Shown piece by piece: positions 311-20,449 of a stretch of DNA of 25,983 nt. The DNA comes from a virus. A program made the translations under genes and the position numbers. How positions within the stretch are numbered: position 1 is the first letter of the stretch; each line of letters starts with the position of its first letter. The notes under the pieces are model-generated. The model searched no databases and had not been told where the DNA came from. It saw nothing but the letters and a program-made list of their open reading frames with translations. The stretch lies in the IMG/VR virus record IMGVR_UViG_3300042691_044710, positions 1 through 25,983 of that record. One strand, given 5' to 3'.

Positions 311-324
311 ATATTTATCATAAA
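311..324 (+). promoter_or_regulatory. Putative late promoter, copy 1
   Basis: The 14-mer ATATTTATCATAAA matches the motif ATATTTAT(A/C)AYAAA that recurs upstream of seven other genes in this window. It begins 23 bases before the ATG at 334. No conserved -35 element is visible, as in T4 late promoters. Confidence 0.6.
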
Positions 325-333
325 CGATACATC

Positions 334-756
334 ATGGCAGATTTAACAGTATATATTAATGAGAAGATTACCTTAAATGGTACTGATAGAGGAGTATTAA
401 CTACTCAAACTATTACAGGAATAAATAATATTGATAATAGAATTTTAAATATATCTTCTGGATCAAATACTACTTTATTCTCATTAAGTAATGAAAATGG
501 AGCAGGTACCTTTGTCACTAGTAGTTTACAATATGTTAGAATAACTAACACATCAACTACAACTCCTGTAAAACTTATAGTATCTTCTTCAACAGAAGCT
601 ATGAGTTATTTAATATCAACTGGTAGTTCATATATGCTTTCTACAAGTAAAATAACTGGAAGTTTATCAGGTTTAGATTTTAATAACATTACATCTATAC
701 AAGCTCAACCATCAGGATCATCTGCAACTATTGAATATTTCATAGCAACGACATAA
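334..756 (+). CDS. Putative virion protein, beta-sandwich type (140 aa)
   Basis: This 140-residue protein is rich in Ser, Thr and Asn, lacks cysteine, and alternates polar and hydrophobic residues throughout, as expected of a small beta-sandwich. A central stretch (about residues 66-100, with QYVRITNTS followed by VKLIVSS and a Ser-Tyr-Met-Leu segment) and an end in IEYFIATT resemble small structural proteins encoded beside neck genes in T4-like marine phages. That resemblance is from memory and is not a firm family assignment. It has its own promoter-like motif 23 bases upstream and lies 11 bases before the gp13-like gene. A head decoration or fibre-associated role is possible. Confidence 0.65.
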   Translation: MADLTVYINEKITLNGTDRGVLTTQTITGINNIDNRILNISSGSNTTLFSLSNENGAGTFVTSSLQYVRITNTSTTTPVKLIVSSSTEAMSYLISTGSSYMLSTSKITGSLSGLDFNNITSIQAQPSGSSATIEYFIATT

Positions 757-767
757 TATAAAATAAA

Positions 768-1901
768 ATGAATATACCTATTTATCCTGGCTCAAGTTCA
801 TTTGCCCCTGGAGAAACTCCATTTGGGTTTTATGATTATGATGTTCAATTCCAAACCGATGCTGATAAAGTAGCTACATTTTGTGCTAGAAGATTAGGAT
901 ATCCTATCATGGAAGTTGAACTTCAAGATTTAAACTTCTACGCCGCATTTGAAGAAGCTATCACTACATATGGAAATGAATTATATGCTTTCCAAACTAG
1001 AGATAACTTATTAAATGCTATAGGAGCTTCTACTGCCTCAAATATGAATCACGCTATCACAACTCCTTCAATGGCAGGTGTGATAAGATTATCTCAACAA
1101 TATGCTGCTGAAGCAGGATCAGGAGGTAATTTAAATTGGTATAGTGGATCATTTATTACAACAGCTAGTCTTCAAGATTATGATTTTAATACTTGGGCTA
1201 TAGAAAATAATGTAACTGGAGGAATGGAGATTAAAAGAGTATTTTACTACCCACCTCCAGCAGTTAACCAAGTATATAATTTAAGTATATTCTCAGGATT
1301 AGGAGGAGTACCAGCAGTAGGAAGTTACGGATTATTTGGATCAACAGGATTCTTAATGTATCCAACAAGTTTATTAGTTCAATCTGTTCAAGCTGTTGAA
1401 ATGCAAAACCAAATTTCATTAGCTGATTATTCATTTGAATTAATAAATAATAAATTAAGAATATTTCCTATTCCTCCAGATGATGGAGCTTATATTTGGT
1501 TCCAATATATTAGTATAGAGGAAAGAAATAATAGTGCAATTACTCAATCCCCAGGTCAAGTAACAAATCCTTCAAATATTAATTTTACTAATCCAGTATA
1601 CTCTCAAATTAATTCAGTTGGTCGTCAATGGATATTTGAATATACTTTAGCATTATGTAAAGAAATGTTAGGATATGTTAGAGGAAAATATACAAATGTA
1701 CCTATTCCTAATAAAGAAATCACCTTAAATCAATCTGACTTATTAACCGCAGCAGCGGCTGAAAAAACAGCTTTAATTGATAGATTAAGAGTATACTTAG
1801 ATGAAACCTCTCGTCAAGCTTTATTAGCAAGAAAACAAGCAGAAAGTGACTCAGCAATGAGTGAATTAAATAAATCACCAATGACAATCTTTATAGGATA
1901 A
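768..1901 (+). CDS. Neck protein, T4 gp13-like
   Basis: This is a head-completion protein expected to sit in the neck that joins the DNA-filled head to the tail. The N-terminal region (about residues 31-85) has the pattern typical of gp13 proteins of T4-like phages: a helix with FCARRLGYPIMEVEL, then AFEEAITTYGNEL. The middle is a beta-rich domain with RIFPIPPDDGAYIWFQY near residues 228-245. The C-terminal third is helical and charged (AAAEKTALIDRLRVYLDE and onward). It is 377 residues against 309 in T4. The gp14-like gene follows after one base and gp15-like after that, so the order 13-14-15 matches T4. The start ATG is preceded by AAATAAA with no Shine-Dalgarno sequence. Confidence 0.82.
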   Translation: MNIPIYPGSSSFAPGETPFGFYDYDVQFQTDADKVATFCARRLGYPIMEVELQDLNFYAAFEEAITTYGNELYAFQTRDNLLNAIGASTASNMNHAITTPSMAGVIRLSQQYAAEAGSGGNLNWYSGSFITTASLQDYDFNTWAIENNVTGGMEIKRVFYYPPPAVNQVYNLSIFSGLGGVPAVGSYGLFGSTGFLMYPTSLLVQSVQAVEMQNQISLADYSFELINNKLRIFPIPPDDGAYIWFQYISIEERNNSAITQSPGQVTNPSNINFTNPVYSQINSVGRQWIFEYTLALCKEMLGYVRGKYTNVPIPNKEITLNQSDLLTAAAAEKTALIDRLRVYLDETSRQALLARKQAESDSAMSELNKSPMTIFIG

Positions 1902-1902
1902 T

Positions 1903-2412
1903 ATGGCCTTATTTGGATCAAGTAGAGATGTTTCATTTGTAAGAAGAATGAATAGAGAACTGATGGGAAATATTATTTCTCAACAGTGTGCTTTTTACAA
2001 ATATAAATTAGCTGAAACCACAGTTAATATGTATGGTGAAGCTTCTACTGGAAGAAACTTTGATGGTCCTGTATTATTAAACGCACTTATAACAATAGGT
2101 GATAATACAAGTCCTACAAGTGATTTAGGAGTAAATTTTGATTGGCCTATGTCTTTTGCTTTCTTAAGAGATGATTTAGTAGACGCTAATATACATCCTG
2201 AAGTTGGTGATGTTATTTTATATCAAGAAAGCTATTGGGAAGTAGATAATACAAATACAGTACAGTTTTGGACTGGAAAAGACCCTGACTATCCAAATGA
2301 ACCTAATCCTTTAAATCCTGGGTTAGCTAATTTTGGATATAATGTATCTGTAACTTGTGAGTGTCATTATGTACCTGCTGATAGATTGAATATTATTAAA
2401 ACTAGATTATAA
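1903..2412 (+). CDS. Neck protein, T4 gp14-like
   Basis: This 169-residue protein lies between the gp13-like and gp15-like genes, the same order as T4. Its C-terminal half carries the pattern seen in gp14-like neck proteins: FAFLRDDL (residues 86-92), then HPEVGDVILY (98-107), an aromatic YWEVDN and a GKDP turn near residue 125. These describe a small beta-barrel-like domain that helps complete the head-tail junction. It is shorter than T4 gp14 (256 residues). Its stop overlaps the next start by one base (TAATG), suggesting coupled translation. The assignment rests on motif pattern plus synteny and is less certain than that of gp13. Confidence 0.72.
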   Translation: MALFGSSRDVSFVRRMNRELMGNIISQQCAFYKYKLAETTVNMYGEASTGRNFDGPVLLNALITIGDNTSPTSDLGVNFDWPMSFAFLRDDLVDANIHPEVGDVILYQESYWEVDNTNTVQFWTGKDPDYPNEPNPLNPGLANFGYNVSVTCECHYVPADRLNIIKTRL

Positions 2413-3380
2413 TGTCTGAAGGAAGAAAACCAATACCTAAAACTCAAAGAGAAATAATTATTTCTCAACAAGAGCCTTATAATCAGGAAGGTCCAGGATT
2501 TCAACCTACTGGAAATCCTAATTTAGCAAATAATCCAAATAGAGGAAACCAAATTTCATTTAGAGGAGATACTACAAAACCTTTCTCAATTGGTATTCAA
2601 GATATTGATGAGGCTATATTTTATTATTTTAAAAATGTTATAAAACCTTTTGTAATACAAAATGGAGAAAGATTAGAAGTTCCTATTATATATGGTTCAC
2701 CTGAGAAATGGAAATCATTTCAACGTGATGGATATTATAGAGATTCTCAAGGTAGAATAATGATGCCTCTTATAATGTTTAAGAGAGATACAATCGATAA
2801 AGTTAGATCAATGACTAATAAATTAGATGCTAACAATCCTCATAATGTATCAATACAAAGTAAAAGATATTCTCCTAAAAATACTTATGACAATTTTAGT
2901 GTATTAAATAATATAAGACCTGAAAAAGTAAATTACGCAGTTATAGTCCCAGATTATTTAACTTTAACTTATAGTTGTGCTGTCAATACTTACTATATGG
3001 ATCAATTAAATAAAATTATTGAAGCAATTGAATACGCTTCTGATTCATATTGGGGTGATCCAGCACGTTTTCAGTTTAGAGCAATGATTGATAGTTTTGC
3101 TACAACTAATACTTTATCAGACAATGCTGAAAGAGTTGTTAGCAGTACTTTTTCTATAAAAATAAATGGACATATTATCCCTGATGTTATACAGAAAGAT
3201 ATGACCGCGTTAAAGAAAATACCAGATAAAACTAAAATTATTGTTAATGAAAGAATTATAGAAGGAGAAAGTTTAAATTATCAAACTCCAACAGTTGGAG
3301 TTTTAGTTACAGGATATTGGAATGATCAAGGAATTTGGGTTGACACAGGTTTTTGGGATGATAATGGATCTTTAGCATAA
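2412..3380 (+). CDS. Tail completion / proximal sheath-stabilising protein, T4 gp15-like
   Basis: The protein caps the tail tube and sheath at the head-proximal end. The core resembles T4 gp15: RLEVPIIYGSPEKWK at residues 87-101, PLIMFKR near 119-125, a strand with LTLTYSCAVNTYYMDQLNKI (183-202) and a final FSIKINGHIIPDVI (247-260). It is 322 residues against 272 in T4. The extra length is an N-terminal Asn/Pro/Gln-rich leader of about 50 residues and a C-terminal tail of about 35 residues rich in Trp, Gly and Asp. Both extensions could contact neighbouring neck parts, which is inference. It starts on the last base of the gp14-like stop codon. Confidence 0.8.
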   Translation: MSEGRKPIPKTQREIIISQQEPYNQEGPGFQPTGNPNLANNPNRGNQISFRGDTTKPFSIGIQDIDEAIFYYFKNVIKPFVIQNGERLEVPIIYGSPEKWKSFQRDGYYRDSQGRIMMPLIMFKRDTIDKVRSMTNKLDANNPHNVSIQSKRYSPKNTYDNFSVLNNIRPEKVNYAVIVPDYLTLTYSCAVNTYYMDQLNKIIEAIEYASDSYWGDPARFQFRAMIDSFATTNTLSDNAERVVSSTFSIKINGHIIPDVIQKDMTALKKIPDKTKIIVNERIIEGESLNYQTPTVGVLVTGYWNDQGIWVDTGFWDDNGSLA

Positions 3381-3400
3381 TAAATAAAATATTTTTAAAC

Positions 3401-4423
3401 ATGAGTATAAATAATTTAAGTAATGGATCGTCAGGAGCTGAAGCTAGAACTATAATAAATGAATTAGTTGATGCTATTAATGCTTTACCTACTATTGATA
3501 GTTCTCAAATTAATTTAGGATCATCAAATGATATAAGATCTACTTTAGGTATGTCTTTAGGATCTTATAACTATAGTGGTGGAAGATTAGCTACAGGTAC
3601 ATTAGTATCAGGAAGTACACACATCACATCAAGTGTTAGTACATCTGCCTTTTTACCTCAAGATTTTTTATATATTACAAGTTTAGATACTGGAATAACA
3701 ACTATTAATCAGATTGATACTATTGATAGTTCTAGTATTTTTACTTTAAGTTCATCTATTGATAGCGGTAGTACTTCTATTGTATTTAGTCAAGTTAATC
3801 AAGGAGCTAATACTTTAAATGTAGGATCACAAAATTATTCCTCAGGAAATGATTCTGTAAATATTGGAGGAGGAAATGAAACCACACGATATGGAAATAG
3901 TTCATTAAATGTAGGAACAGGAAATTATTGTAATAATAGTAATACTCTTATATCAGGTATAGGAGGATCTTCTATGTTCTCTCCAAGTAAAGTATTATCA
4001 GGTAATATCTTAAATAAAAAAGGAGATTGTCAATCAACAGAAATAATGATTGGAGTAATAACAACAAATGATTCTCCTACTTCTGTTTTATTATATGGAG
4101 ATAAAAAACTATCTATTCCTATAAATACAGCTCATAAATTTCATATAGAAGCTATAGCTCATCAAACTGGTGGATCTTCTGGAAATGTTGGAGATACTTA
4201 TTCTCAAGATATTTACGGTGTTATAATAAATACAGCTGGTACAACCAAATTAGTTGGATCTCCAAATACTGCAAATACATTTTATTCAACTGATGCTTCT
4301 ACTTGGGTTATAGATGTACAAGCTAATAATACTGATGATACTCTTTTAATTCGTGTTATAGGAGAAGCAAATAAAACTATTAAGTGGGTTTTTAAAATAA
4401 CTTTTATTCAAACAAAAATATAA
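3401..4423 (+). CDS. Putative receptor-binding fibre/adhesin with YadA-like repeats
   Basis: Three regions are visible in 340 residues. The N-terminus (about 1-30) has a helix, AEARTIINELVDAINAL, of the type found at the base of phage fibre proteins. Residues 136-187 hold three degenerate repeats of the form SLNVGxxNYxxxN / SVNIGxGN, very like the left-handed beta-roll head repeats of trimeric adhesins such as YadA. Residues 209-340 resemble a C-terminal domain common in phage tail and fibre proteins: it opens after KKGDCQSTEIM, has a LSIPINTAHKFHIEAIAHQT strand pair, and ends with LLIRVIGEANKTIKWVFKI. Together they suggest a trimeric surface fibre that binds the host. It sits between neck and sheath genes, outside the core T4 order, with only 20 bases upstream. 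Confidence 0.65.
   Translation: MSINNLSNGSSGAEARTIINELVDAINALPTIDSSQINLGSSNDIRSTLGMSLGSYNYSGGRLATGTLVSGSTHITSSVSTSAFLPQDFLYITSLDTGITTINQIDTIDSSSIFTLSSSIDSGSTSIVFSQVNQGANTLNVGSQNYSSGNDSVNIGGGNETTRYGNSSLNVGTGNYCNNSNTLISGIGGSSMFSPSKVLSGNILNKKGDCQSTEIMIGVITTNDSPTSVLLYGDKKLSIPINTAHKFHIEAIAHQTGGSSGNVGDTYSQDIYGVIINTAGTTKLVGSPNTANTFYSTDASTWVIDVQANNTDDTLLIRVIGEANKTIKWVFKITFIQTKI
3806..3961 (+). repeat. YadA-like coding repeats in the fibre gene
   Basis: Residues 136-187 of the fibre protein contain three units of about 14-16 residues built on N-(T/S)-LNVG or SVNIG followed by a GN turn. The DNA copies are degenerate, so the repeat is old or under protein-level selection. Confidence 0.6.
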
Positions 4424-4432
4424 AATTAAAAA

Positions 4433-5578: not shown

Positions 5579-5591
5579 TATTTATAATAAA
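5578..5591 (+). promoter_or_regulatory. Putative late promoter, copy 2
   Basis: ATATTTATAATAAA overlaps the last base of the preceding TAA stop and begins 23 bases before the ATG at 5601. It matches the window-wide motif perfectly. Confidence 0.65.
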
Positions 5592-5600
5592 ATTAAATTT

Positions 5601-5849
5601 ATGGAAACAAAGTTATTAACACAAGAAGAAATTACTCAATTGAAAAATACAAGAGAAAAAAGATTTCAATTAGTAGAAAGTTTTGGTATTTTAGAATCAA
5701 GAATTCAAGAAATTAATTTACAAAAAGAAACTCTTAAAGAAGAACTTAAAAAATTAATTCAAGAAGAAACTAATTTAGGTAAAACTTTGCAACAAAAATA
5801 TGGTGATGGATCTATTAATCTTGAAAAAGGAGAATTCATAACCAGCTAA
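5601..5849 (+). CDS. Small coiled-coil protein of unknown function (82 aa)
   Basis: The 82-residue product is almost entirely helical and charged. From about residue 8 to 66 hydrophobic residues (Leu, Ile) recur with heptad spacing, for example in ILESRIQEINLQKETLKEEL, so a coiled coil is very likely. It ends with a short Gly/Asp turn (KYGDGSINLEKGE). It has no membrane segment. It has its own late-promoter motif and is followed by another one before the sheath gene, so it appears to be separately transcribed. Chaperone, scaffold or minor structural roles are conceivable; none can be chosen from sequence. Confidence 0.7.
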   Translation: METKLLTQEEITQLKNTREKRFQLVESFGILESRIQEINLQKETLKEELKKLIQEETNLGKTLQQKYGDGSINLEKGEFITS

Positions 5850-5869
5850 TGTTTTTGATAAGTTTCACC

Positions 5870-5883
5870 ATATTTATAACAAA
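5870..5883 (+). promoter_or_regulatory. Putative late promoter, copy 3 (tail sheath)
   Basis: ATATTTATAACAAA begins 38 bases before the sheath ATG at 5908 and matches the motif perfectly. It lies in a 58-base gap that has no other visible element. Confidence 0.65.
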
Positions 5884-5907
5884 AATCAAAAATAAACATA
5901 ATTAACA

Positions 5908-7641
5908 ATGGCAGAAACTTTAATATCACCAGGCGTTTTAGCAAGAGAAAACGATTCATCTTTTGTAAGTAAAAGACCGGTTACTGTAGGAGCAGCGATT
6001 ATCGGCCCAACTGTAAAAGGTCCCGTTGAAGTTCCAACGATAGTTACAACTTGGAGTGACTATGTGAATAAATTTGGTACTACTCTTTTAAGTGGTAGTA
6101 CTAATGATCAAAAAACATATACTTACTTTACTTCTATAGCAGCATATAATTATTTTGCTAATGGAGGAACTTCATTATTAGTAGCTAGAGTAAAATCAGG
6201 ATCATACACATCAGCTACAAGTTCCTTAATTCCAACTGGTTCAGGTGGTCCTACAGCAGGTGGTTCACCTTTTGTATTACAAACATTCTCTAAAGGTGTT
6301 ATTATGAATAATACTGGAGGTACAGAAGTAAGTGGAGCTTTAGCTAGTGGATCTTCAGATAACATTAGATGGCAAATTTTAAATGCTAATACTTCTTCTG
6401 GAACCTTTGATTTACTAATCAGACAAGGTGATGATAATACATTACAACCTATTGTATTAGAAACTTGGACTAATTTAAATTTAGATCCTAATTCTTCAAA
6501 TTATATTGCTCGTGTTATTGGTGATATAAATGAAAATTATGATTCAACAAATAATCAAATCCAATACTCAGGATCATTTGCTAATAGATCAAATTATGTT
6601 AGAGTAAGTGCTGTTAATTTTACCACACCTAATTATTTTGACGCGAACGGTGTCGCTAAAATTCAATTTACAGGATCTTTACCAACAAACGCCTCAGGTA
6701 CATTTGGATCTGCTACTGGTGATGTAAAAGGTGGAGCTTTATTTTATAATAATATAACAGACGCAGGCAATACTCAAGGATTAGTAGCAAGTAATTATGA
6801 TAATATGATTAACTTATTATCTAATCAAGATGATTATAAATTTAATATATTATTGACTCCTGGATTAATTAATAACTTTGCTACCCACACTGGTAAAATA
6901 TCTACTATTATTCAAAATACTCAAAACCGCGGTGATAACATTTATGTCTTAGATTTAGTAGGATATGGATCAAATGCATCTACAGTCACAGCTCAAGCTG
7001 GTACTAGAAATACTTCATATGCTACTTCATATTGGCCTTGGGTTCAAATTATTGAACCTTCAACAGGTGAATTAGTTTGGGTTCCAGCTTCAACAATGAT
7101 TGGTGGAGTTTATGCTTATAATGACTCAGTAGCTGAACCTTGGTTCGCACCAGCAGGTATTAACAGAGGTGGTTTATCAACAGTAGTGAGAGCTGAACAG
7201 CGTTTATCTCAAACTCAACGTGATAGTTTATACTCAGGAAAAGTAAATCCAATCGCTACATTCCCTGGAACTGGTGTTGTAGTATATGGTCAGAAAACAT
7301 TACAAACTAAAGCTTCTGCTCTTGATCGTGTGAATGTTAGAAGATTGTTAATTGCTCTTAAGTCATATATTTCTCAAATCGCTAATAACTTAGTATTTGA
7401 ACAAAATACAGTAGCAACAAGAAATAACTTCTTATCACAAGTTAACCCATACTTAACAAGTGTTCAACAACGTCAAGGTTTATATGCGTTTAAAGTAGTA
7501 ATGGATGATTCAAATAATACTCCAGATGTGATTGATAGAAATGAATTAGTAGGTCAAATTTACTTACAACCAACTAAAACAGCAGAATTCATTTACTTAG
7601 ATTTCAACATTACTCCAACTGGTGCATCATTCCCTGCTTAA
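5908..7641 (+). CDS. Tail sheath protein (T4 gp18-like)
   Basis: This is the contractile outer layer of the tail. The N-terminus has the sheath signature SPGVLARENDSSFV (residues 7-20), followed by GAAIIGPTVKGPVEVPT. The C-terminal domain has the conserved sheath core: RRLLIALKSYISQIANN, then FEQN, a FLSQVNPYLTSVQQRQGLY stretch and a final DRNELVGQIYLQPTKTAEFI before the last beta strand. These C-terminal strands weave sheath subunits into helical rings around the tube. It is 577 residues against 659 in T4, with variation in the surface domain between about 90 and 300. The 3' half uses more CGT arginine codons than the fibre genes, consistent with high expression. The tail tube gene follows. 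Confidence 0.95.
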   Translation: MAETLISPGVLARENDSSFVSKRPVTVGAAIIGPTVKGPVEVPTIVTTWSDYVNKFGTTLLSGSTNDQKTYTYFTSIAAYNYFANGGTSLLVARVKSGSYTSATSSLIPTGSGGPTAGGSPFVLQTFSKGVIMNNTGGTEVSGALASGSSDNIRWQILNANTSSGTFDLLIRQGDDNTLQPIVLETWTNLNLDPNSSNYIARVIGDINENYDSTNNQIQYSGSFANRSNYVRVSAVNFTTPNYFDANGVAKIQFTGSLPTNASGTFGSATGDVKGGALFYNNITDAGNTQGLVASNYDNMINLLSNQDDYKFNILLTPGLINNFATHTGKISTIIQNTQNRGDNIYVLDLVGYGSNASTVTAQAGTRNTSYATSYWPWVQIIEPSTGELVWVPASTMIGGVYAYNDSVAEPWFAPAGINRGGLSTVVRAEQRLSQTQRDSLYSGKVNPIATFPGTGVVVYGQKTLQTKASALDRVNVRRLLIALKSYISQIANNLVFEQNTVATRNNFLSQVNPYLTSVQQRQGLYAFKVVMDDSNNTPDVIDRNELVGQIYLQPTKTAEFIYLDFNITPTGASFPA

Positions 7642-7656
7642 TTCTTTAGAACATAG

Positions 7657-7670
7657 ATATTTATAATAAA
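7657..7670 (+). promoter_or_regulatory. Putative late promoter, copy 4 (tail tube)
   Basis: ATATTTATAATAAA begins 31 bases before the tube ATG at 7688. It gives the tube gene its own promoter and would allow more tube than sheath transcripts. Confidence 0.65.
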
Positions 7671-7687
7671 CAAAAAGATAAAATAAA

Positions 7688-8176
7688 ATGGCAGTATTAA
7701 ATCCAAACGAAATATTCTTCACAGCTTTCGAGCCGAAGGTTAAAAATCGCTTCTTAATGTATGTGGATGGTATTCCAGCATATATCATCAAAAGAATTGG
7801 TCCTGTAAGTGTTGATATGGGTGAAATTAAATTAAATCATATTAACGTTTACCGTAAAATCAAAGGTAGAGCTCAATGGGCAGATATCGAAATGACTTTA
7901 CATGACCCAATCACTCCCTCAGGTGCTCAGGCAGTAATGGAATGGGTACGTTTACATCATGAATCTGTAACGGGCCGTGACGGTTACTCAGATTTCTATA
8001 AAAAAGATGTAACAATCAACATTTTAGGTCCAGTTGGAGATATTATCTCAGAATGGATTGTTAAAGGAGCATTTATTAAATCAGCTAACTTTGGTGATTA
8101 TAACTGGGATGAAGATGCAGCTGCTCAAGAATTAACAGTTAACTTAGGAATGGATTATTGTATCTTGAATTTCTAA
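7688..8176 (+). CDS. Tail tube protein (T4 gp19-like)
   Basis: The protein stacks as hexameric rings to form the inner tube through which DNA passes. At 162 residues it is almost exactly the length of T4 gp19 (163). The sequence fits the tube beta-barrel: an N-terminal NEIFFTAFEPKVKNRFLMYVD, a central VYRKIKGRAQWADIEMTLHD, a helix with GAQAVMEWVRLHHESVTGRDGY and a C-terminal pattern ending with QELTVNLGMDYC. Four of its six Arg codons are CGT or CGC, unlike most genes here, consistent with heavy expression. A terminator hairpin follows directly, making this a monocistronic or sheath-tube unit. Confidence 0.95.
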   Translation: MAVLNPNEIFFTAFEPKVKNRFLMYVDGIPAYIIKRIGPVSVDMGEIKLNHINVYRKIKGRAQWADIEMTLHDPITPSGAQAVMEWVRLHHESVTGRDGYSDFYKKDVTINILGPVGDIISEWIVKGAFIKSANFGDYNWDEDAAAQELTVNLGMDYCILNF

Positions 8177-8193
8177 TTAGTAAAAATAAGTGT

Positions 8194-8235
8194 AAAGAAA
8201 GCTCACCTAAATTTGGTGAGCTTCTTTATTTTTCA
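8194..8235 (+). terminator. Rho-independent terminator after the tail tube gene
   Basis: GCTCACC (8201-8207) pairs with GGTGAGC (8215-8221) around a 7-base loop, with A-rich/T-rich flanks that extend the stem through a one-base bulge. A T-rich tract follows. It ends the tube transcript just before the next promoter motif. Confidence 0.8.
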
Positions 8236-8236
8236 T

Positions 8237-8250
8237 ATATTTATATCCGA
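8237..8250 (+). promoter_or_regulatory. Putative late promoter, copy 5 (degenerate)
   Basis: ATATTTATATCCGA keeps the eight-base core but departs from the AYAAA tail of the motif. It starts two bases after the tube terminator and 39 bases before the ATG at 8276, which would re-start transcription into the baseplate genes. Confidence 0.5.
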
Positions 8251-8275
8251 ATATAAAAGTTATTAAATAAAGATT

Positions 8276-9314: not shown

Positions 9315-9328
9315 ATATTTATAACAAA
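9315..9328 (+). promoter_or_regulatory. Putative late promoter, copy 6 (tape measure)
   Basis: ATATTTATAACAAA begins 27 bases before the tape-measure ATG at 9342 and matches the motif perfectly. Confidence 0.65.
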
Positions 9329-9341: not shown

Positions 9342-12044
9342 ATGGCATTATCAGCAGACGACGCAGCAAAATTACAGCAGAAATTGCAAGAAATTGAACG
9401 ATTATCTCGTTTATTAGGGGCTAATATTAATACTGTTAATTTACAACCTTTAGAAGAAAATGCTGGTAATATTGAAGCTATTTTTGAAAGATTAACAAAT
9501 CAAGCAGCTGGATTAGGTGAAGAAACTGATTATTTAGTATCTAATTTTCAAAAACTAGTTGGAGAAATTAAAAAATCAGGTTCAGGAATTAATGAAAGTA
9601 CTAAAGGTCTTAGAGCTCTTAGTAGTATAACTGAGAAAATTTCTAGTTATCAAAAAGGTTATAATAATCTATCTTCTAAAGAAATATCTGAACTTAAAGA
9701 TAAAGTTAAAATTGAAACAGATAGATTAAAAATAGCTAAAAATACTTTAAAAGAAGAAGCTATAGAATTAAGTCAAAAAATTCGATATGGTAATCTTACA
9801 CCTAAACAACTTCAAGTTGAACAAGAAAAATTAGCTAAAATAATTATAGCTAGAAAAAATATAAGACAACTTCTTGAAAATGAAGATATTACTTTAGGTG
9901 AACTTAATAATAAATTAGATATAGCTGAAAAAGAAGCTAAACGTATTGAAAAAGCATTAGGTCTTACTGGTGCTGCTTTAAAAGGAATATCTAAAATCCC
10001 TATTTTAGGAGATCTTGTTGATACACAAGAAGCTTTAAAAGCAGCTTCAGATGCTGCTAGAGATGGAGCTGGTAAAATAGGTGCTATGGGAGCGGCTATA
10101 GGTTCTATGGGTAAAAGTCTTGTATCAAACTTAAATGATCCTTTAGTAGTAATAGGATTATTAACAAAAGGATTTTTAGCTTTTATTAATTTATTAACAG
10201 AAGCAGATAAATCCACAGGTGAACTAGCTAAAGGTATGAATATGTCATACAATGATGCTAGTAAGTTAAGAGGACAATATGCTGAAATAGCAAAAAACGC
10301 TCATGATAGTTATATAACTGTAAAAGGTTTACAAGAATCTCAATTAGCTATAGCTCAAACATTAGGTACAACAGCTAAATTAAATGAACAGGATTTAAAA
10401 ACGTTTACTAAATTAAGAGATCAAGCTGGTTATACTAATGAAGAATTAGCAGAAATACAAAAATTAACATTAGCAGTTGGTGGTAACTTAGAAGGTAATG
10501 TTAAAAGTTTCGCGGGTACTGTAGCTAAATTAAATCTACAAAATAAATTAACAATTAATGAAAAACAATTATTAAAAGATGTTTCTAAAGTATCTGATAG
10601 TATCAAATTATCTGTAGGAGGAACAGCTGAAGCTATAGCTACAGCTGCTTTTAAAGCGAAACAATTTGGTATAAATTTAGAACAAGCGGATAGAATGGCG
10701 GAAGGATTACTCAATTTTGAGGAATCAATGACTAATGAAATATCTGCTCAATTATTAACAGGTAAAAATATTAATTTAGAACATGCTCGTTTATTAGCAT
10801 TAAATGGAGACATAGCAGGAGCATCAGCTGAAATTTTATCACAAGTAGGAGGAACAGCGGAATTTAGTAATATGAATCGAATCCAACAAGAAGCAATAGC
10901 TAAAGCTGTTGGATTAAGTAGAGATGAATTAGCAAAATCATTAATTGAAAGAGAAGCGTTACAAAAAATTGGAGTTAAAGATGCTGAAGAAGCAGAAAAA
11001 AAATATCGTATTTTAAGACAAACAATGACCGCTGAAGAAGCGGCTAAAGCATTAGGAGATGAAGCTTATGCTAGACAATTAGAACAAACCACAGTAGCTG
11101 AAGATTTTAACCAAATAATTTTACAATTAAAAGAATTATTTATTCCTATTGCTCAACAATTACTTCCTAAAATTAAGGAACTTTTAGGACCAGAAGGTGG
11201 TGTTCAATCTTTAGTAGATAAGATAAAAAGTAGTTTTGATACAATATTAACTGTTGTTGAAGTTATAGCAGCGGTCATCGGAGTAAAAATGGTAGCTGGC
11301 TTAGTATCATCAGTAGCTCAAGCTGTTAAATTAGTATCAACTTTAGGTCAAGCTAATACTGGTGGAGGAATGGGAGGAGGACCTAGTGGTGGACCTGGTG
11401 GAGGCGGTGGAGGAATGTTTGGGGATGGTCTTGGAGGTCTTTTTAAAGGTGGAAGAGCGGGGAAATTAGCTAGAGGTAAAGCATTAAGAGGAGCAGGAAA
11501 ATTAGCTAAAGGAGCTGGATTTTTATCTTTACTAGGAGCTGGGTTAGATTTAGGTACTAATTTAATGGATCCAAATAGATCAACAGGAAACGCTTTAGCT
11601 AAAACTTTAGATCAAAATAAATTTATGGCTTTAGGAGCAGGAATTGGTTCTATAATTCCTGGTTTAGGTACAGTTGTTGGAGCCGGAATTGGCGGTTTAG
11701 CAGATTTATTTTTAGGAGATTCAACTCAAATGGTTGAAGATGCTCTTATTAGCAGTAATGGTTTAGTAGTAGGTAAATATAACAGAGGTCAAATTAAACC
11801 TATAGCACAAGGAAGACCAGATGATAATGTAATATTTACAACAAATAATGTTTCAAATAATACTAATACAGATAATAGTGAGTTAGCTAGAGAAATGAGA
11901 GAAATAAAAGCAATACTAGCTGATACATTAAATGTAGATAAACAAATGGTAGCTATTAGTATGGCTAGTAAATCTCCATCTATTATAATGGATAGTACTA
12001 GTGTCGGTACAGCTATTAATATAGGTACTTATTCAATACAATAA
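9342..12044 (+). CDS. Tail tape measure protein
   Basis: This protein sets tail length and lies inside the tube. The order is typical: a long charged helical region (about residues 95-210, many Lys/Glu heptads), hydrophobic helical segments around 240-285, a helical middle domain (about 300-620), a hydrophobic stretch near 640-670, a Gly-rich hinge at about 674-694, then Lys/Ala/Gly-rich and hydrophobic helices (about 715-795, including GSIIPGLGTVVGAGIGG). The Asn/Asp-rich C-terminus may face the tail tip. At 900 residues it is longer than T4 gp29 (590), which predicts a longer tail if the helical rule of about 0.15 nm per residue applies. It is expressed from its own late-promoter motif and follows the chaperone-like pair. 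Confidence 0.85.
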   Translation: MALSADDAAKLQQKLQEIERLSRLLGANINTVNLQPLEENAGNIEAIFERLTNQAAGLGEETDYLVSNFQKLVGEIKKSGSGINESTKGLRALSSITEKISSYQKGYNNLSSKEISELKDKVKIETDRLKIAKNTLKEEAIELSQKIRYGNLTPKQLQVEQEKLAKIIIARKNIRQLLENEDITLGELNNKLDIAEKEAKRIEKALGLTGAALKGISKIPILGDLVDTQEALKAASDAARDGAGKIGAMGAAIGSMGKSLVSNLNDPLVVIGLLTKGFLAFINLLTEADKSTGELAKGMNMSYNDASKLRGQYAEIAKNAHDSYITVKGLQESQLAIAQTLGTTAKLNEQDLKTFTKLRDQAGYTNEELAEIQKLTLAVGGNLEGNVKSFAGTVAKLNLQNKLTINEKQLLKDVSKVSDSIKLSVGGTAEAIATAAFKAKQFGINLEQADRMAEGLLNFEESMTNEISAQLLTGKNINLEHARLLALNGDIAGASAEILSQVGGTAEFSNMNRIQQEAIAKAVGLSRDELAKSLIEREALQKIGVKDAEEAEKKYRILRQTMTAEEAAKALGDEAYARQLEQTTVAEDFNQIILQLKELFIPIAQQLLPKIKELLGPEGGVQSLVDKIKSSFDTILTVVEVIAAVIGVKMVAGLVSSVAQAVKLVSTLGQANTGGGMGGGPSGGPGGGGGGMFGDGLGGLFKGGRAGKLARGKALRGAGKLAKGAGFLSLLGAGLDLGTNLMDPNRSTGNALAKTLDQNKFMALGAGIGSIIPGLGTVVGAGIGGLADLFLGDSTQMVEDALISSNGLVVGKYNRGQIKPIAQGRPDDNVIFTTNNVSNNTNTDNSELAREMREIKAILADTLNVDKQMVAISMASKSPSIIMDSTSVGTAINIGTYSIQ

Positions 12045-12057: not shown

Positions 12058-12071
12058 ATATTTATAATAAA
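12058..12071 (+). promoter_or_regulatory. Putative late promoter, copy 7
   Basis: ATATTTATAATAAA begins 31 bases before the ATG at 12089 and matches the motif perfectly. It would drive the baseplate genes that follow with no further motif copy up to the terminator at 18609. Confidence 0.65.
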
Positions 12072-12088: not shown

Positions 12089-12415
12089 ATGGGACTTAAA
12101 GACATGCTTCTTAATCAAGGTACTCCACTTTCTTATGGAAATGGAGCTACTCCTATCACTAACCAAGGTGCAACCCAGCAATCAAAATTACATGCTGACG
12201 GAAATACAGCTGGATATTCTTTAGATGGATCTGACTTTCAAGATGTAAATTCTGCTTATCAACAATATAATGATGGTGTTGGGAACTTTTTACCTCAACC
12301 TTCAGGATTAGACATAAATGGTCAAGTACCTGTAGGTCCATTAAGTGATCCTAATGTACCTTCTATTAATAACTCTTTTTCACAAGGTCAGTATTTGAAT
12401 AACTTACCTGGATAA
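12089..12415 (+). CDS. Small Asn/Gly/Gln/Pro-rich protein of unknown function (108 aa)
   Basis: The product is 108 residues, rich in Asn, Gly, Gln, Pro and Ser, with few charges after the first ten residues and no cysteine. It begins MGLKDMLLNQGTPLSYGNG. The composition suggests an extended or partly disordered polypeptide rather than an enzyme. It is the first gene of the baseplate run, has a promoter motif 31 bases upstream, and its stop is two bases before the next start. A minor baseplate component or an extended arm is plausible from place, but no family is recognised. Confidence 0.65.
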   Translation: MGLKDMLLNQGTPLSYGNGATPITNQGATQQSKLHADGNTAGYSLDGSDFQDVNSAYQQYNDGVGNFLPQPSGLDINGQVPVGPLSDPNVPSINNSFSQGQYLNNLPG

Positions 12416-14451: not shown

Positions 14452-14462
14452 TAATTAAAATA

Positions 14463-14789: not shown

Positions 14790-14790
14790 A

Positions 14791-17700
14791 ATGAATATAT
14801 TTGGTGAAGGATTTCCTAAAGAAATAATAGATCAAATTGAAATAAGACAAAAAGCTTATAGCTATGGTTATGGAAAAAATAATTTTAATAGATTTGAAGG
14901 TAGTTATGTCTACACTAACGCTAAAACAGCTTGGTGTAAGTTAGTTTCATCTGCTAATATTGATAATATTAACTTAATAAATAATTCTATTATAAGAGAT
15001 TTAGGTTTCACAAATGGAGACCAAATAGCTAGAGATTTTATATTATTTAATGGTACTACTCCGTCTTCATCATTAGATGGAAAATTTGGATTAGGATATG
15101 GAGATACTAAAGGATTTGGAGCTTATAATAGTTGGGGAATACAAAACGCTGATTTTGGTTTTAGACCAATGGCTGGTATAACCTCAGTTACAGTTAAACA
15201 TAAAAATAGAGGTTCTATTAGAGCAGCATCTGTTAATATTAAAGCATGGGATAAAGCAACTTTTGAGATCATTGATATTTTATATTTACGTTTAGGTTTT
15301 TCTGTTCTTTTAGAATGGGGAAACTCAGTTTACTTAGAAAATAGAGATGCTGTTCTTCAACAAAATGTTAATAATAGTTTAGCTAATGAATTTTTAAAAG
15401 CAGATTTAACTTATAATGAATTTTTAGCTAAAATTAAAAAACAACAATTAAAATCATTTGGAAATTATGATGCTATGTTTGGTAAAGTGACTAATTTTCA
15501 TTGGTCATTTAATCAAGATGGTAGTTATGATATAGTTTTAGATTTAATTAGCGCTGGTGATGTTCTTGAATCTTTTAAAGTGAAAGGAAATGCTTTAGCA
15601 GTTTCTGATACATCTACAACTACCTCAGGTACAGAAACTGATAAACCAGTTGATTTAGAAACAAGAGATATTTATAAAGTTTTAGCTAAATATGCTCCTA
15701 CAAATGATATAGCTAATTATCTATATAAAGCATCTTTAGTGTTTCAAGCTGATCATCAAGGTCACGCCAGTGGTACAAACTATTTATATAATTATTCATT
15801 TAAAACAGATCCTAATACATATTGGACTCCAACAACTGGAGATTTCGATAAGGCCAAAAATAGTTCTTCTCGTAAAAAAGATATATGTTTTGTAGTGTCA
15901 ACTACAGTTACTTCTTCTTCTGATAATTCTACTAAATATAATGCTGAAACTAATTATTTTATAAGATTAGGCAATCTTCTTAAATTTATACAAGAAGGAA
16001 CAATGTATAAAGTTAAAAATCAAAAAGGAAAAGAGCAGCCTCTTTTGTTATTTGATTATGATTTTGATAATTTTATGCATGTTCCTCCTCAAATGATGAG
16101 TTATGACCCATCAGTTTGTATGGTAAGAAGAAAAGTAACATTTCCTGGACCTCCAGGTAGTGCTAATATTGTAGATGAAAGTGAATATTTCCAATACAGT
16201 GGTTATATAGATCAAGCATCTGAAGTACGAGCTGATTTCGCTGAAGAATTTATGGTTGGTAGTTTAGATGAAGTAGGTAAAATAATGAATATATATGTTA
16301 ATTTTAGATATATTTTAACTAAATTACAAGAATCAACAAATGCTGACACCAATGAATTAAAATTAATAGATTTTTTAAAAAGTATTTTATCTGGTATAAA
16401 TGGAGCTTTTGGTGGTTATAGTAAACTAGAATTATTTATAGATGAATCAACTAATGAAGTAAAAATAATAGATCAAAATCCTTTACCATCTAATAAAAAA
16501 GCTATAGAATATATAAATCCAACATATAAAAATTCTAATCTTCCTGAAATTCCTACAAATTATGCTTTATTTGAATTATATGGTTACACTAAAAGAGATA
16601 ATGTTGATTATGAGAAAACTACTATAGTACAAGATTTTAAATTTAACACAGAATTAACTCCTGAGTTTTCTACTATGATTAGTGTATCTGCTACTAGTAG
16701 AGGAAATGTTGTAGGAGAAAATAATACAGCCTTATCTAAATTAAATTTAGGATTAACAGATAAATATAAAACAGAAATAAATGGAGGAGGAGCACTTTTA
16801 GATTCATCAGCTCAAGATATAAAAACAAAATTAAAAGAAGATAAAGAAAAAGCTGAGGAAGAATATTGTAATTTTGTAAGAAATTTAGTTGATTATTTAA
16901 GACATTTATTTTATGGAACATATATTCCTCAAGAAATTCAAGATAATAAAGGCGCATTTTCTATCTACTCAAATCTCTATAAAAAAGTTCAAAAAACTAT
17001 AAATGATTATAATAGTTATGATGCTTCAACTAATTCTTTTAAGAATCTAACTAAATTCCAACCAGGGACAGGTTTTATACCTTTTAATTTATCATTAACA
17101 ATAGATGGATTATCAGGTATGAAAATAGGCTCTAAATTTTTAATTGATGGCTCATATTTACCTTCAAATTATCCTGAGACAGTTGATTTTCTTATTAAAA
17201 GTATCACTCATGAAATAAAAGATAATAAATGGACTACTAATTTAGAATCATATTGTATAGCCCAAGGAGACTCATCATATTCTACTCCTAAAAGAGAATC
17301 AACTGTTGAAAACAAAAAATCAGAATCAAGTTCTAAATCAAATTCTAATCGTGATAAAAACACAAATACTAAAAATAGAGGAGATTTCTTTTCTTGGGTT
17401 AGAGGCCCATATGCTGAACCAGATGATAATTTTTCTAATAATGGTTATGCTGTAGCTGTTTTAAAAGGTACAGTTAGAGATAAATTTACTCAAAAGGCAA
17501 GTACAAATCCTCCAACTTTAAAAGCAGGATATCCAAAAACTGTTACTAGTAGTAGAGGAAAGCCAATAGTGACTGAAAAATATACCACAGTAGATTATAC
17601 CTCAGCTGAATTTGAACAACAACTTAAAGATATTTTAAAAGGCATAGGTGCTATAAGTACTCCAGGTAATATAATATTTATGAAAGCATGGCGACAAGCA

Positions 17701-17967
17701 GAAGGAGGATCAGCATTAAATAATCCTTGGAATTCTACTCAATCAATAGGAACTAAAAAAAGCAATTATAATTATGTTGGTGTTAAAAACTATTTTACAT
17801 ATCAAGATGGTGTAGATGCTACGGTTAAAACTATGACAAATGGTAGATATAATACAGTAATAAAAGCTTTAAAAAAAGGTTTAAAAGATAAAGCTGAAGC
17901 TTTAGAATTAGCTCGTTTAGTACAAAAATATGATATGACTGGAGCTATTCCTGATAAATGGAAATAA
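14791..17967 (+). CDS. Baseplate hub protein with C-terminal cell-wall-lysis domain
   Basis: This 1058-residue protein joins a hub body to a lytic domain. The N-terminal body (about 1-830) has gp27-like features: SVTVKHKNRGSIRAASVNIKA near 130-150, FGKVTNFHWSFNQDGSYDIVL near 230-250, and a beta domain near 760-825 with LTIDGLSGMKIGSKFLIDG. A Ser/Asn/Lys-rich linker covers about 837-866. The end (about 940-1058) resembles phage lysozyme or transglycosylase-type domains: FMKAWRQAEGG (putative catalytic Glu 971), NPWNSTQ, NYNYVGVKNYFTYQDGVDAT and a C-terminal GRYNTVIKALKKG. It would puncture the peptidoglycan during injection, a job done by gp5 in T4. The bond cleaved is not known. It follows gp53-like by one base. 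Confidence 0.75.
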   Translation: MNIFGEGFPKEIIDQIEIRQKAYSYGYGKNNFNRFEGSYVYTNAKTAWCKLVSSANIDNINLINNSIIRDLGFTNGDQIARDFILFNGTTPSSSLDGKFGLGYGDTKGFGAYNSWGIQNADFGFRPMAGITSVTVKHKNRGSIRAASVNIKAWDKATFEIIDILYLRLGFSVLLEWGNSVYLENRDAVLQQNVNNSLANEFLKADLTYNEFLAKIKKQQLKSFGNYDAMFGKVTNFHWSFNQDGSYDIVLDLISAGDVLESFKVKGNALAVSDTSTTTSGTETDKPVDLETRDIYKVLAKYAPTNDIANYLYKASLVFQADHQGHASGTNYLYNYSFKTDPNTYWTPTTGDFDKAKNSSSRKKDICFVVSTTVTSSSDNSTKYNAETNYFIRLGNLLKFIQEGTMYKVKNQKGKEQPLLLFDYDFDNFMHVPPQMMSYDPSVCMVRRKVTFPGPPGSANIVDESEYFQYSGYIDQASEVRADFAEEFMVGSLDEVGKIMNIYVNFRYILTKLQESTNADTNELKLIDFLKSILSGINGAFGGYSKLELFIDESTNEVKIIDQNPLPSNKKAIEYINPTYKNSNLPEIPTNYALFELYGYTKRDNVDYEKTTIVQDFKFNTELTPEFSTMISVSATSRGNVVGENNTALSKLNLGLTDKYKTEINGGGALLDSSAQDIKTKLKEDKEKAEEEYCNFVRNLVDYLRHLFYGTYIPQEIQDNKGAFSIYSNLYKKVQKTINDYNSYDASTNSFKNLTKFQPGTGFIPFNLSLTIDGLSGMKIGSKFLIDGSYLPSNYPETVDFLIKSITHEIKDNKWTTNLESYCIAQGDSSYSTPKRESTVENKKSESSSKSNSNRDKNTNTKNRGDFFSWVRGPYAEPDDNFSNNGYAVAVLKGTVRDKFTQKASTNPPTLKAGYPKTVTSSRGKPIVTEKYTTVDYTSAEFEQQLKDILKGIGAISTPGNIIFMKAWRQAEGGSALNNPWNSTQSIGTKKSNYNYVGVKNYFTYQDGVDATVKTMTNGRYNTVIKALKKGLKDKAEALELARLVQKYDMTGAIPDKWK

Positions 17968-17979
17968 AAAATATATATC

Positions 17980-18576
17980 ATGCCGTATTATCCTAAATCT
18001 CAAATAATAAGTAATTTATACACTAATGGTGGAGAATTATTTTATTTAACTGGAGAGCCGTATGTAGGATATTATTATAAAATATCTAATGGTTCATATT
18101 TTTCTGGTAAAACTCCTCAAGATGCTCCTAATGTTAGGTTAGTACTATCTCCATTATTAAAATCTAACAATATTAGTAATATTAATATTAATAGTTTATC
18201 ATATATTAATACATCTCAAGATTCAATAGATTATCCTTTATTTAGAGATGAAGATATATTATTGCCTTATTATTCTCCTACTCTTCCAACATCTCAAGAT
18301 TATCAAATAGGAGAAATGAGAAGATATTTTTGTAAAAAGATAAATGAAATATCTTATTTAGAAATAAATAAAGAAATTTATGATAAATTAATTAAAAATG
18401 ACTTAACTATAGCATTCCAATTCTACCAAGCATTTAACATACCATGGCAGTTAACAGGAGATAAAGAACAAGTCTTTAAAACAAACCGTAACATAGTAGA
18501 ATTAACTATGAAACAAAAAAAATTACCTCAGTTTGATTTATACCTTAAAAAAGATTATATAAAATATTATAAGTAA
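17980..18576 (+). CDS. Unknown protein closing the structural operon (198 aa)
   Basis: The product is 198 residues, rich in Tyr, Asn, Ile, Lys and Ser. It opens with PKSQIISNLYTNGGELFYLTG and then YVGYYYKISNGSYFSGKTPQD, a pattern that I associate with small proteins encoded near the end of structural blocks in T4-like marine phages; this is recollection, not a family match. The second half (about 105-198) is more helical and charged, with MRRYFCKKINEISYLEINKE and a basic end. It has no membrane segment. It is the last gene before a cluster of hairpins and a strong terminator, so it is probably a late gene; a baseplate or fibre-attachment role is speculative. Confidence 0.7.
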   Translation: MPYYPKSQIISNLYTNGGELFYLTGEPYVGYYYKISNGSYFSGKTPQDAPNVRLVLSPLLKSNNISNININSLSYINTSQDSIDYPLFRDEDILLPYYSPTLPTSQDYQIGEMRRYFCKKINEISYLEINKEIYDKLIKNDLTIAFQFYQAFNIPWQLTGDKEQVFKTNRNIVELTMKQKKLPQFDLYLKKDYIKYYK

Positions 18577-18608
18577 TACGTCTTAGGACCGTATATAGCT
18601 TCGGCTAT
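18576..18608 (+). ncRNA. Two abutting hairpins upstream of the terminator (structured 3' RNA end)
   Basis: ATACG (18576-18580) pairs with CGTAT (18590-18594), and the next base begins ATAGC (18595-18599) paired with GCTAT (18604-18608) across a TTCG tetraloop closed by C-G. The third hairpin, the terminator, starts at 18609. The three stems touch without spacer bases, which favours coaxial stacking. This could be a stabilised 3' end of the late transcript or a separate structured RNA. Confidence 0.45.
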
Positions 18609-18644
18609 GAGCACCCCAACTTCGCTCCTTGGGGTGCTCTTTTT
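18609..18644 (+). terminator. Strong rho-independent terminator between structural and replication modules
   Basis: GAGCACCCCA (18609-18618) pairs perfectly with TGGGGTGCTC (18630-18639) across an 11-base loop, and TTTTT follows at once. It is the most G+C-rich element in the window and ends the late structural transcript. Confidence 0.93.
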
Positions 18645-18653
18645 AACTAAAAG

Positions 18654-18667
18654 CTTGGGACCCCAAG
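18654..18667 (+). other. Small hairpin upstream of the polymerase gene
   Basis: CTTGG (18654-18658) pairs with CCAAG (18663-18667) over a GACC loop, 36 bases before the ATG at 18704. The TTG inside its first arm is 20 bases from TATCTTCT (18678-18685), a weak match to a Bacteroidota -33/-7 promoter. Either a promoter or a second weak terminator is possible. Confidence 0.3.
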
Positions 18668-18703
18668 ATTTCTTTAGTATCTTCTCCCTATAAAATAAAG
18701 GTT

Positions 18704-19975
18704 ATGTTCTATATAATAGAAACGTCTGAACAGTTAAGTGAGTTTTTCGAGATAGGTCACGATAAAGTATTTATTGAGCCTATACTTTTTAATGATCAGG
18801 TGCATCCTGCTTTAAATCATATATCTTTACTTTATATTAAGCCAGTAGTAAATGATAAAGGATATATACTATGTTTAAATCATTCTGAGGCATTAAAATT
18901 AAATAAAACACCTATAACAAATCTACTTGCTTCTTATAAGGAAATATATGTCCGTGATCGTAAGTCGTTTATATACTTTTTTCCATTAAAGAATTTAATA
19001 GATATATCATTTTACTCCCCAGAATATATTGAACCAACAACATCAGCTCATGAAATATTTTATAGAAATCATGGACATAGAGAAAATATAAATACTATTA
19101 TTCCTTTAACTAAACATTATGAAAAATGTGAGTTGATTTTCAATAAAGTAAAAGATTATTTTAAAACAGATAATGTTAAATTTAATAATAAGTTAACTAG
19201 TGTTTTCTTTGCAATTGAAAGAAACGGTATTAAAATAAATAAAAAACAATTTGATAAACATTTTGAATTAAATCATGAACAATATAGCATTCAGGATAAC
19301 ACAATTTATACACAATATAACTTATATACTACAACCGGAAGGCCTTCCAATAGTTTTAATAGTATTAATTTTGCAGCACTTTCAAAAGATAATGGATGTA
19401 GAAAATCTTTTATCCCAAATAATGATAGATTCATTGAAATAGATATAAGTGCTTACCATCCAACATTAGCAGCTAAATTAGTAGATTATGATTTTGGAGA
19501 TGAAACACCATATGAATATTTTGCTAGAGAAGCAGGTATTGAGGTAAATGAAGCCAAAATATTAATGTTTAGACAATTATACGGGGGTATTTATAATGAA
19601 TACAAATATATTGACTACTTCCAGTTAATTGAAGAACATGTAAATAAGTTATGGAAAGAATATATAACAAATGGTTACATATCTTGTCCTATCTCAGGTC
19701 ATATGTTAACAAAAGATATAAAAGATATCAATCCACAAAAGCTATTTAATTATACATTACAGAATTTGGAGACCTCAACTAATGTTTGTATAGTGTGGGA
19801 TATTATAAAATTATTAAAAAATAAAAAAACAAAAATTGTATTATACACCTATGATTCTATCTTATTAGATTATTGTGATGATGATGATATTTTAGAACCA
19901 ATTAAAGAAGTATTTAAAAAATACAACTTGAAAATAAAAACAACAAAAGGTGTCAATTACGACAAAATGGCATAG
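18704..19975 (+). CDS. Short, divergent family A DNA polymerase
   Basis: The C-terminal half carries the family A core in order: YTTTGRPSNSFNSINFAAL (about 208-226), motif A with FIEIDISAYHP (catalytic Asp 247), motif B with KILMFRQLYGG (Lys 285, Phe 289, Tyr 293, Gly 294, spacing identical to K758-F762-Y766-G767 of E. coli Pol I) and motif C with TYDS (Asp 384). Unusual residues: the position of the steric-gate Glu (Pol I E710) is His 252, the O-helix Arg (R754) is Val 281, and HDE is YDS. The first 120 residues suggest a degenerate exonuclease-like domain without an obvious DxE. At 423 residues it is far shorter than Pol I or T7 polymerase. It opens the replication module and probably acts with the 5'-nuclease, helicase and gp32. 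Confidence 0.78.
   Translation: MFYIIETSEQLSEFFEIGHDKVFIEPILFNDQVHPALNHISLLYIKPVVNDKGYILCLNHSEALKLNKTPITNLLASYKEIYVRDRKSFIYFFPLKNLIDISFYSPEYIEPTTSAHEIFYRNHGHRENINTIIPLTKHYEKCELIFNKVKDYFKTDNVKFNNKLTSVFFAIERNGIKINKKQFDKHFELNHEQYSIQDNTIYTQYNLYTTTGRPSNSFNSINFAALSKDNGCRKSFIPNNDRFIEIDISAYHPTLAAKLVDYDFGDETPYEYFAREAGIEVNEAKILMFRQLYGGIYNEYKYIDYFQLIEEHVNKLWKEYITNGYISCPISGHMLTKDIKDINPQKLFNYTLQNLETSTNVCIVWDIIKLLKNKKTKIVLYTYDSILLDYCDDDDILEPIKEVFKKYNLKIKTTKGVNYDKMA
19337..19348 (+). repeat. 12-base perfect palindrome in the polymerase gene
   Basis: GGAAGGCCTTCC lies over codons for Gly-Arg-Pro-Ser of the conserved TTTGRPS segment and uses the rare AGG and TCC codons. It could be chance or a protein-DNA site. 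Confidence 0.4.
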
Positions 19976-19977
19976 TT

Positions 19978-20436
19978 ATGGAAAGAATCGCGTTTGAGCC
20001 CTCAGTAGATATTTATAACCAGTATGACTTTACAACTGAAGGCGACTTTATGAACAATCGATTATTTGCGACCTTTTCGCAACATGATGACTTAGATTAT
20101 TTAATAGATAATCTAGCATCAACATATAGTATAATGTATAACAAAATGTTTGTGTTATTTGTTAAAAGTACAAATGAATATGTTGTCACATATAATGTTG
20201 AGCAAGGGAATATTAACTCAATCCCAGCTAACACTATTTTAGTACATAGAAAAAAAGAATCAAATACTTTATATACAATAAATGCTTTAAACGATTTAAT
20301 TAAAAAATTAAATGGTGGTGCTGTTGATCCAACTTTTAAAATTAATTGGCAACATTATCGCAACTGTATTTTATTAACTCAACATGGAGAAATAAAACAG
20401 TTAAATACAAAGATATTCAAAATTGTAGAGTTATAA
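19978..20436 (+). CDS. Conserved-looking unknown protein paired with the polymerase (152 aa)
   Basis: The gene starts two bases after the polymerase stop. The 152 residues include FTTEGDFMNNRLFATF (about 18-33), a segment with NKMFVLFVKSTNEYVVTYN, and a distinctive TILVHRKKESNTLYTINAL followed by a NDLIKKLNGG helix (about 94-124). The VHRKKxSNTLYTINALN pattern recurs, in my memory, in small proteins beside replication genes of marine T4-like phages, but no function is known to me. It has no membrane segment and no nuclease motif that I can see. Adjacency suggests a polymerase accessory, a clamp-like adaptor or a regulator. Its stop overlaps promoter motif copy 8. Confidence 0.7.
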   Translation: MERIAFEPSVDIYNQYDFTTEGDFMNNRLFATFSQHDDLDYLIDNLASTYSIMYNKMFVLFVKSTNEYVVTYNVEQGNINSIPANTILVHRKKESNTLYTINALNDLIKKLNGGAVDPTFKINWQHYRNCILLTQHGEIKQLNTKIFKIVEL

Positions 20437-20449
20437 TATTTATCATAGA
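20436..20449 (+). promoter_or_regulatory. Putative late promoter, copy 8 (gp32 gene, distal)
   Basis: ATATTTATCATAGA matches 13 of 14 positions of the motif and overlaps the upstream stop codon. It starts 135 bases before the ATG at 20571, much further than the other copies, leaving a long transcribed leader. Confidence 0.5.

Follow-up and report, generated by a model that had tools for sequence, protein, structure and literature searches.

The late promoter of phage T4, TATAAATA, works with gp55, gp33, and the gp45 clamp. A 25,983-base IMG/VR fragment of a T4-like myovirus, hereafter the window, carries repeated copies of a motif, ATATTTATMAYAAA, that resembles the reverse complement of this promoter, and the locus raises the question of whether the motif is a promoter, on which strand it acts, and which factor reads it. 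Judged by the sequence comparisons below, the motif is a genuine late-promoter element that has a consensus of its own and is read along the genes, in a large T4-like group with mostly flavobacteria-type hosts. It is quite probable that the element belongs to a T4-related clade around the Flavobacterium immuto phages, would most likely be directed by a sigma factor of the gp118 family, and would drive virion genes rightward. An open-access literature search, with most subscription papers outside its scope, found no account of this promoter.

Distribution and conservation of the motif

The window contains sheath, tube, hub, baseplate wedge, and head-tail adaptor genes followed by replication genes. 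A DNA-level comparison found no close phage record for it. By sheath protein, the closest isolates are the immuto phages (54%), and sheaths 61–93% identical to that of the window are present on many viral contigs. Gene starts in the window lack Shine-Dalgarno sequences, as is usual in Bacteroidetes (PMC6847099). Genes on uncharacterised contigs were called with a simple longest-open-reading-frame script, and single distances may err if the true start lies further downstream.

An earlier note on this DNA had listed eight copies of the motif, and all eight coordinates are correct: six copies are exact and two, at 8237 and 20436, deviate (Table 1). The six exact matches to ATATTTATMAYAAA are all intergenic and on the coding strand, compared with 0.0125 (maximum 1) per window on that strand in 400 dinucleotide shuffles and 0.0035 expected in shuffled intergenic DNA. 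The opposite strand holds no exact match, and the pattern read backwards has none in the window. As the matches are strand-specific, a palindromic protein-binding site is ruled out. When two mismatches are permitted, 17 matches are found versus 11.6 expected, a number reached in 10 of 100 shuffles, so that the excess is not clear. Therefore the signal resides in the exact motif, and the copies at 8237 and 20436 require separate evidence. A scan with the Escherichia coli sigma-70 consensus did not rise above shuffles.

Coding-strand enrichment across whole genomes, which the same note had asked for, is found in the relatives. Six related contigs have 41 exact matches, on one strand per contig and always the coding strand, and a reversed-pattern control gives 0. 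Save for a few exceptions these matches are intergenic, with an ATG mostly 18–38 nucleotides (nt) downstream. De novo discovery in 366 upstream regions of eight genomes returns the same element: the 8-mer ATATTTAT occurs in 127 of them versus 8.7 expected, and the top motif of an unsupervised expectation-maximization search is ATATTTATaAYAAA. Site alignment and discovery together give the consensus ATATTTATAAYAAA.

The suggestion that the motif belongs to late (virion) genes is borne out by its footprint before the sheath and tube genes. Upstream of the sheath gene, the motif is present with ≤2 mismatches in 70 of 74 relatives, and in none of 74 control windows of the same size within the gene. 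The corresponding figure for the tube gene is 74/77, with a less clean control in which two mismatches are reached in 13 of 73 windows; for the gene at 12089, all 14 of 14 relatives have the motif upstream with ≤2 mismatches. The gene at 5601, which precedes the sheath gene, was dropped from footprinting, since the motif is found in few of its orthologues and the in-gene controls overrun the sheath promoter. The A/T-only element of the −10 type stands before late genes with no −35 partner, as had been proposed: across 90 sites no upstream position is conserved (all ≤0.42 bit). This set was seeded with ≤1 mismatch, and its inner positions are therefore biased to the consensus.

A different class of promoter serves another part of the genome. 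In immuto, an early class, GTTGC-N18-TATMTTTAGG, fills a region of small unknown genes at 60–77 kilobases (kb) and fits the Bacteroidetes pattern, with a −33 TTG at fixed spacing and a host-like −7 TAHHTTT. A weight-matrix scan at score 14 finds 33 forward sites (mostly at 60–77 kb), 1 reverse site, and 0 in the reversed control, where 17 of the 33 forward sites match by construction because the matrix was derived from them. Plain counting of TTG-N20-TAHHTTT was abandoned: the T-rich reverse strand is about equally rich in it, and weight-matrix counts are preferred for that reason. Late-motif sites in immuto lie largely among virion genes, with others ahead of a small number of genes for lysis, metabolism, or unknown functions, so the regional partition between early and late is strong but short of absolute. 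At 141–155 kb of the related contig G001 (L098), early promoters bear TTAGGCTTACA in place of GTTGC; the −33 element varies among relatives while the late motif is constant.

A candidate late sigma factor

A gp55-like sigma factor, another object that the earlier note had proposed to look for, appears to be carried by the relatives. A PHROG late-sigma search of immuto gave a single weak match, gp118 (phrog_234, best expectation value (E) 0.008). The gp118 family is large, with members 57–91% identical. Its commonest Pfam match, in 30 of 45 members and below threshold, is Sigma70_r2 (PF04542), and 20 of the 45 match the PHROG late sigma weakly. For the structural model of gp118 (predicted local distance difference test (pLDDT) score 81), the top PDB match in VIA-align is 7d7c_F (Z 9.5, 129 residues, root-mean-square deviation (rmsd) 6.0), which is T4 gp55 in a gp55-dependent promoter open complex. 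The remaining rows are almost all sigma factors; 4lup_C is listed with Z 8.5 and rmsd 2.8 over 93 residues. The model thus suggests a sigma region 2 fold, for which a Z of such size on a helical model is supportive but no proof.

The sigma gene and the motif are tied by position. In each of 80 loci, the gene that follows the sigma gene has the core [AC]TATTTAT upstream; the 14-mer with ≤2 mismatches lies downstream of the sigma gene in 69 of 80 loci versus 0 of 80 control windows. Both are present in G002, a contig whose sheath is 65% identical to that of the window. The pairing extends beyond Bacteroidetes to Mel-JY01, whose recorded host is Microcystis (as in the record) and whose leaders are Shine-Dalgarno-like. 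This phage encodes a gp118-family sigma (E 1.7e-48), and ATATTTAT is among its two most enriched upstream 8-mers (17 vs 1.8), while exact ATATTTATAAYAAA is absent from T4, Syn19, and HTVC008M; recognition by the phage's own factor is therefore favoured over a host sigma. Mel-JY01 also has a second enriched upstream motif, AGTTCTTGCATAC (L202, L211-L214).

In the mechanism that we favour, the gp118-family protein, a gp55-like sigma-region-2 protein, would most likely guide RNA polymerase to the core [AC]TATTTAT. The core would serve as a −10-type element without a −35 partner, and transcription would proceed rightward into virion genes, presumably late in infection.

Several observations weigh against this mechanism. 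Every sequence-based sigma match is below threshold, a profile comparison with two gp55 sequences is weak (E 0.016, probability 2.9%), and Foldseek returns nothing at E <0.001 for the gp118 model, so that the case for the fold depends on VIA-align, whose listed matches are nearly all sigma factors. The window has no sigma gene, and G001 has the motif with no sigma gene in its sequenced part. Mel-JY01 shares the 8-base-pair core only and not the AAYAAA half. In addition, ATATTTA is common to early promoters and the late motif, which makes sites such as 8236 ambiguous. The absence from G001 was rejected as a counter-argument, because the ends of this contig flank the position of the sigma gene in immuto. 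A single-sequence search with T4 gp55 gave no significant match, and the gp118 profile run directly against PDB sequences gave chance matches only.

At its C-terminus the gp118 family has a conserved helical domain that ends in ..YxxYxxxG, whereas T4 gp55 ends in ..SLDFLYEAND, and the hydrophobic-acidic C-terminal clamp-binding motif of gp55 was not found in the family. A fused sigma 2–sigma 4 protein was considered and set aside: the C-terminal domain alone (pLDDT 89) gives no region 4 match, although a region 4 may yet be present, and its top row is an integrase N-terminal domain (Z 6.6). Tenacibaculum phage pT24 has a protein of 119 residues (A0A1B4XWX9) with a Foldseek likeness to the gp118 model (E 0.19, probability 0.99).

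The clamp itself was sought with phrog_223, the gp45 model, which has no match in immuto, G001, G002, G007, or G008 and matches in the T4, Syn19, and HTVC008M controls. No clamp loader is detected in immuto. A gp44-type loader is encoded by both G001 (100585–101469, E 1e-71) and G002 (64210–65130, E 4e-77); a firm claim of no clamp was given up on this account, and because of these loaders a divergent clamp may exist.

Direction of action and rival explanations

Six copies contain TATTTATA, the exact reverse complement of TATAAATA, and all 24 called genes of the window read rightward. Faced with this, the earlier note had offered two options, a late sigma with a different recognition element on the coding strand or antisense firing of the site; the former agrees with our results and the latter does not. 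The distance from the motif to the downstream ATG is tight (interquartile range 22–31 nt; 13 to 59 nt overall), whereas the distance to the upstream stop codon is loose (interquartile range 3–26 nt, 95th percentile 118 nt), which argues for rightward action. The base that completes the complement of the T4 box varies, so that 18 of the 74 sheath sites lack TATTTATA, and coding-strand TATAAATA occurs in 20 of 335 upstream regions compared with 118 for ATATTTAT. With its position set by the start codons downstream and with changes that break TATTTATA tolerated, the element is not an antisense promoter. There are hardly any leftward genes, and before those of Mel-JY01 the opposite strand carries no core at the distance of a promoter. 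That a T4-type promoter fires on the opposite strand or both ways is thus the least credible of the explanations considered, for all the exactness of the match, and the likeness is best read as a coincidence of two A/T-only boxes.

A reading that takes the motif for a variant of the Bacteroidetes housekeeping −7 box, used by the host sigma with no need of a phage factor, is unlikely but deserves more weight. The sigma-ABfr promoter (−33 TTTG / −7 TAHHTTTG) has a TTT-centred −7 box too, the early promoters of these phages fit it, the late core ATATTTA recurs in the early TATATTTA, and the −33 box of F. johnsoniae is weak (PMC6847099). The late sites, however, have no −33 box and lack the near-invariant T-12 and G-5: T is at −12 in 19 of 90 sites and G at −5 in 1 of 90 (A in 89 of 90). 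Seven conserved bases are added downstream, early and late sites separate by genome region, and Mel-JY01, for which a cyanobacterial host is recorded, retains the core along with the phage sigma. It is also conceivable that the motif acts at the RNA level, as a signal for translation or processing, given its strand specificity, its place shortly before ATG, and the lack of Shine-Dalgarno sequences. This is very improbable: the spacing to ATG is as variable as stated above, the motif is mainly found at genes with a preceding gap (once after the terminator-like hairpin at 8199), and it forms a class distinct from the early promoters.

For a phage late promoter acting rightward, the start site can be approached from one gene family in which the ATG overlaps the motif end in homologues 44–74% identical (G003, G005/L033, L041, L042, L019). 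If the motif serves that gene, the abutting ATG places the transcription start inside the motif. In Flavobacterium, the −7 box runs T-12 A-11 .. G-5, with the start 4–5 nt past the box (PMC6847099). When the first A of the motif is aligned to A-11, by geometry only, the motif would span about −11 to +3 and the pyrimidine-adenine step at bases 11/12 would be −1/+1. The T4 register (TATAAYAA as −13 to −6) is disfavoured, because the ATGs at the 14th base, conserved in homologues, would then precede the transcript start.

The system resembles that of T4 in its T4-like virion genes, A/T-only −10-type box, lack of a −35 element, and phage-encoded sigma-region-2 protein. It differs in the consensus ([AC]TATTTATAAYAAA vs TATAAATA), in the number of conserved positions (about 14 vs 8), and in the start, which is apparently inside the motif rather than about 6 nt past the box. 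There is no gp45-type clamp by the PHROG model, and gp118 is without the short C-terminal clamp-binding motif of gp55. In KVP40, 44RR, S-PM2, and Aeh1, an in silico late consensus has been linked to gp55 homologues (review PMC2988020); those promoters retain a T4-like consensus, whereas the present clade does not.

A broader picture, to which we give somewhat less than even weight, is that a widespread T4-like clade has a new late consensus spanning the start, read by a gp55-like sigma that is divergent, carries an additional conserved C-terminal domain, and possibly works without a gp45-type clamp; that sigma and promoter have been kept as a pair while the host phylum changed; and that some late mRNAs are nearly leaderless. 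For abundant and mostly uncultured phages, the 14-base signature offers a working rule by which late transcription units can be found, along with the likely sigma gene. With the same sigma family and core in Mel-JY01, whose recorded host is a cyanobacterium, the co-evolution of late sigma and promoter becomes a question that can be asked, and the generality of the T4 arrangement with its gp45 clamp is called into question.

Other features of the window

The copy at 8237, ATATTTATATCCGA, is off-consensus and probably a degenerate real site. Its orthologues before the hub gene in relatives are often degenerate as well, ATATTTATAATAGA-like and at a distance of 34–41 nt. The site also matches the early pattern as TTTGG-N19-TATATTT, with TTTGG at 8212. 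The copy at 20436 is probably not the promoter of the single-stranded DNA (ssDNA)-binding protein gene; it is the weakest of the listed copies because an early-type promoter candidate lies closer to that gene.

Table 1. Predicted promoter elements and a terminator-like hairpin in the window.
Feature	Position	Strand	Remarks
Late promoter element ATATTTATCATAAA	311–324	+	exact match; ATG at 334, 23 nt on
Late promoter element ATATTTATAATAAA	5578–5591	+	exact match; overlaps stop codon of upstream gene; ATG at 5601, 23 nt on
Late promoter element ATATTTATAACAAA, tail sheath gene (5908–7641)	5870–5883	+	exact match; ATG 38 nt on
Late promoter element ATATTTATAATAAA, tail tube gene (7688–8176)	7657–7670	+	exact match; ATG 31 nt on
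Terminator-like hairpin between tube and hub genes	8199–8223	+	
Degenerate or hybrid element TATATTTATATCCGA, before baseplate hub gene (8276)	8236–8250	+	directly 3' of terminator-like hairpin
Late promoter element ATATTTATAACAAA, tape-measure-like gene (9342–12044)	9315–9328	+	exact match; ATG 27 nt on; 4/4 detectable orthologues
Late promoter element ATATTTATAATAAA, gene at 12089	12058–12071	+	exact match; ATG 31 nt on
Early-type promoter candidate CTTGG-N19-TATCTTC (18678)	18654–18684	+	before family A DNA polymerase gene (18704)
Off-consensus copy ATATTTATCATAGA	20436–20449	+	1 mismatch; 135 nt to next ATG
Early-type promoter candidate TTTGG-N19-TATATTTA (20538)	20514–20545	+	before ssDNA-binding protein gene (20571)

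Positions 14791–17967 encode a protein of 1058 residues; by eye, its C-terminal part resembles a glucosaminidase or lysozyme. The syntenic gene of immuto carries a carboxypeptidase annotation. In immuto, the family A DNA polymerase is apparently encoded in two parts, by genes that lie about 37 kb from each other (1–1326; 37898–40231, L087). The window gene at 18704–19975 is a homologue of the first immuto part, and a terminator-like hairpin and a candidate early-type promoter lie directly 5' of it. A thioredoxin-like gene is kept alongside the family A polymerase (immuto 16792–17055, G001 87490–87741, G002 53510–53755), which recalls the polymerase-thioredoxin pair of T7.

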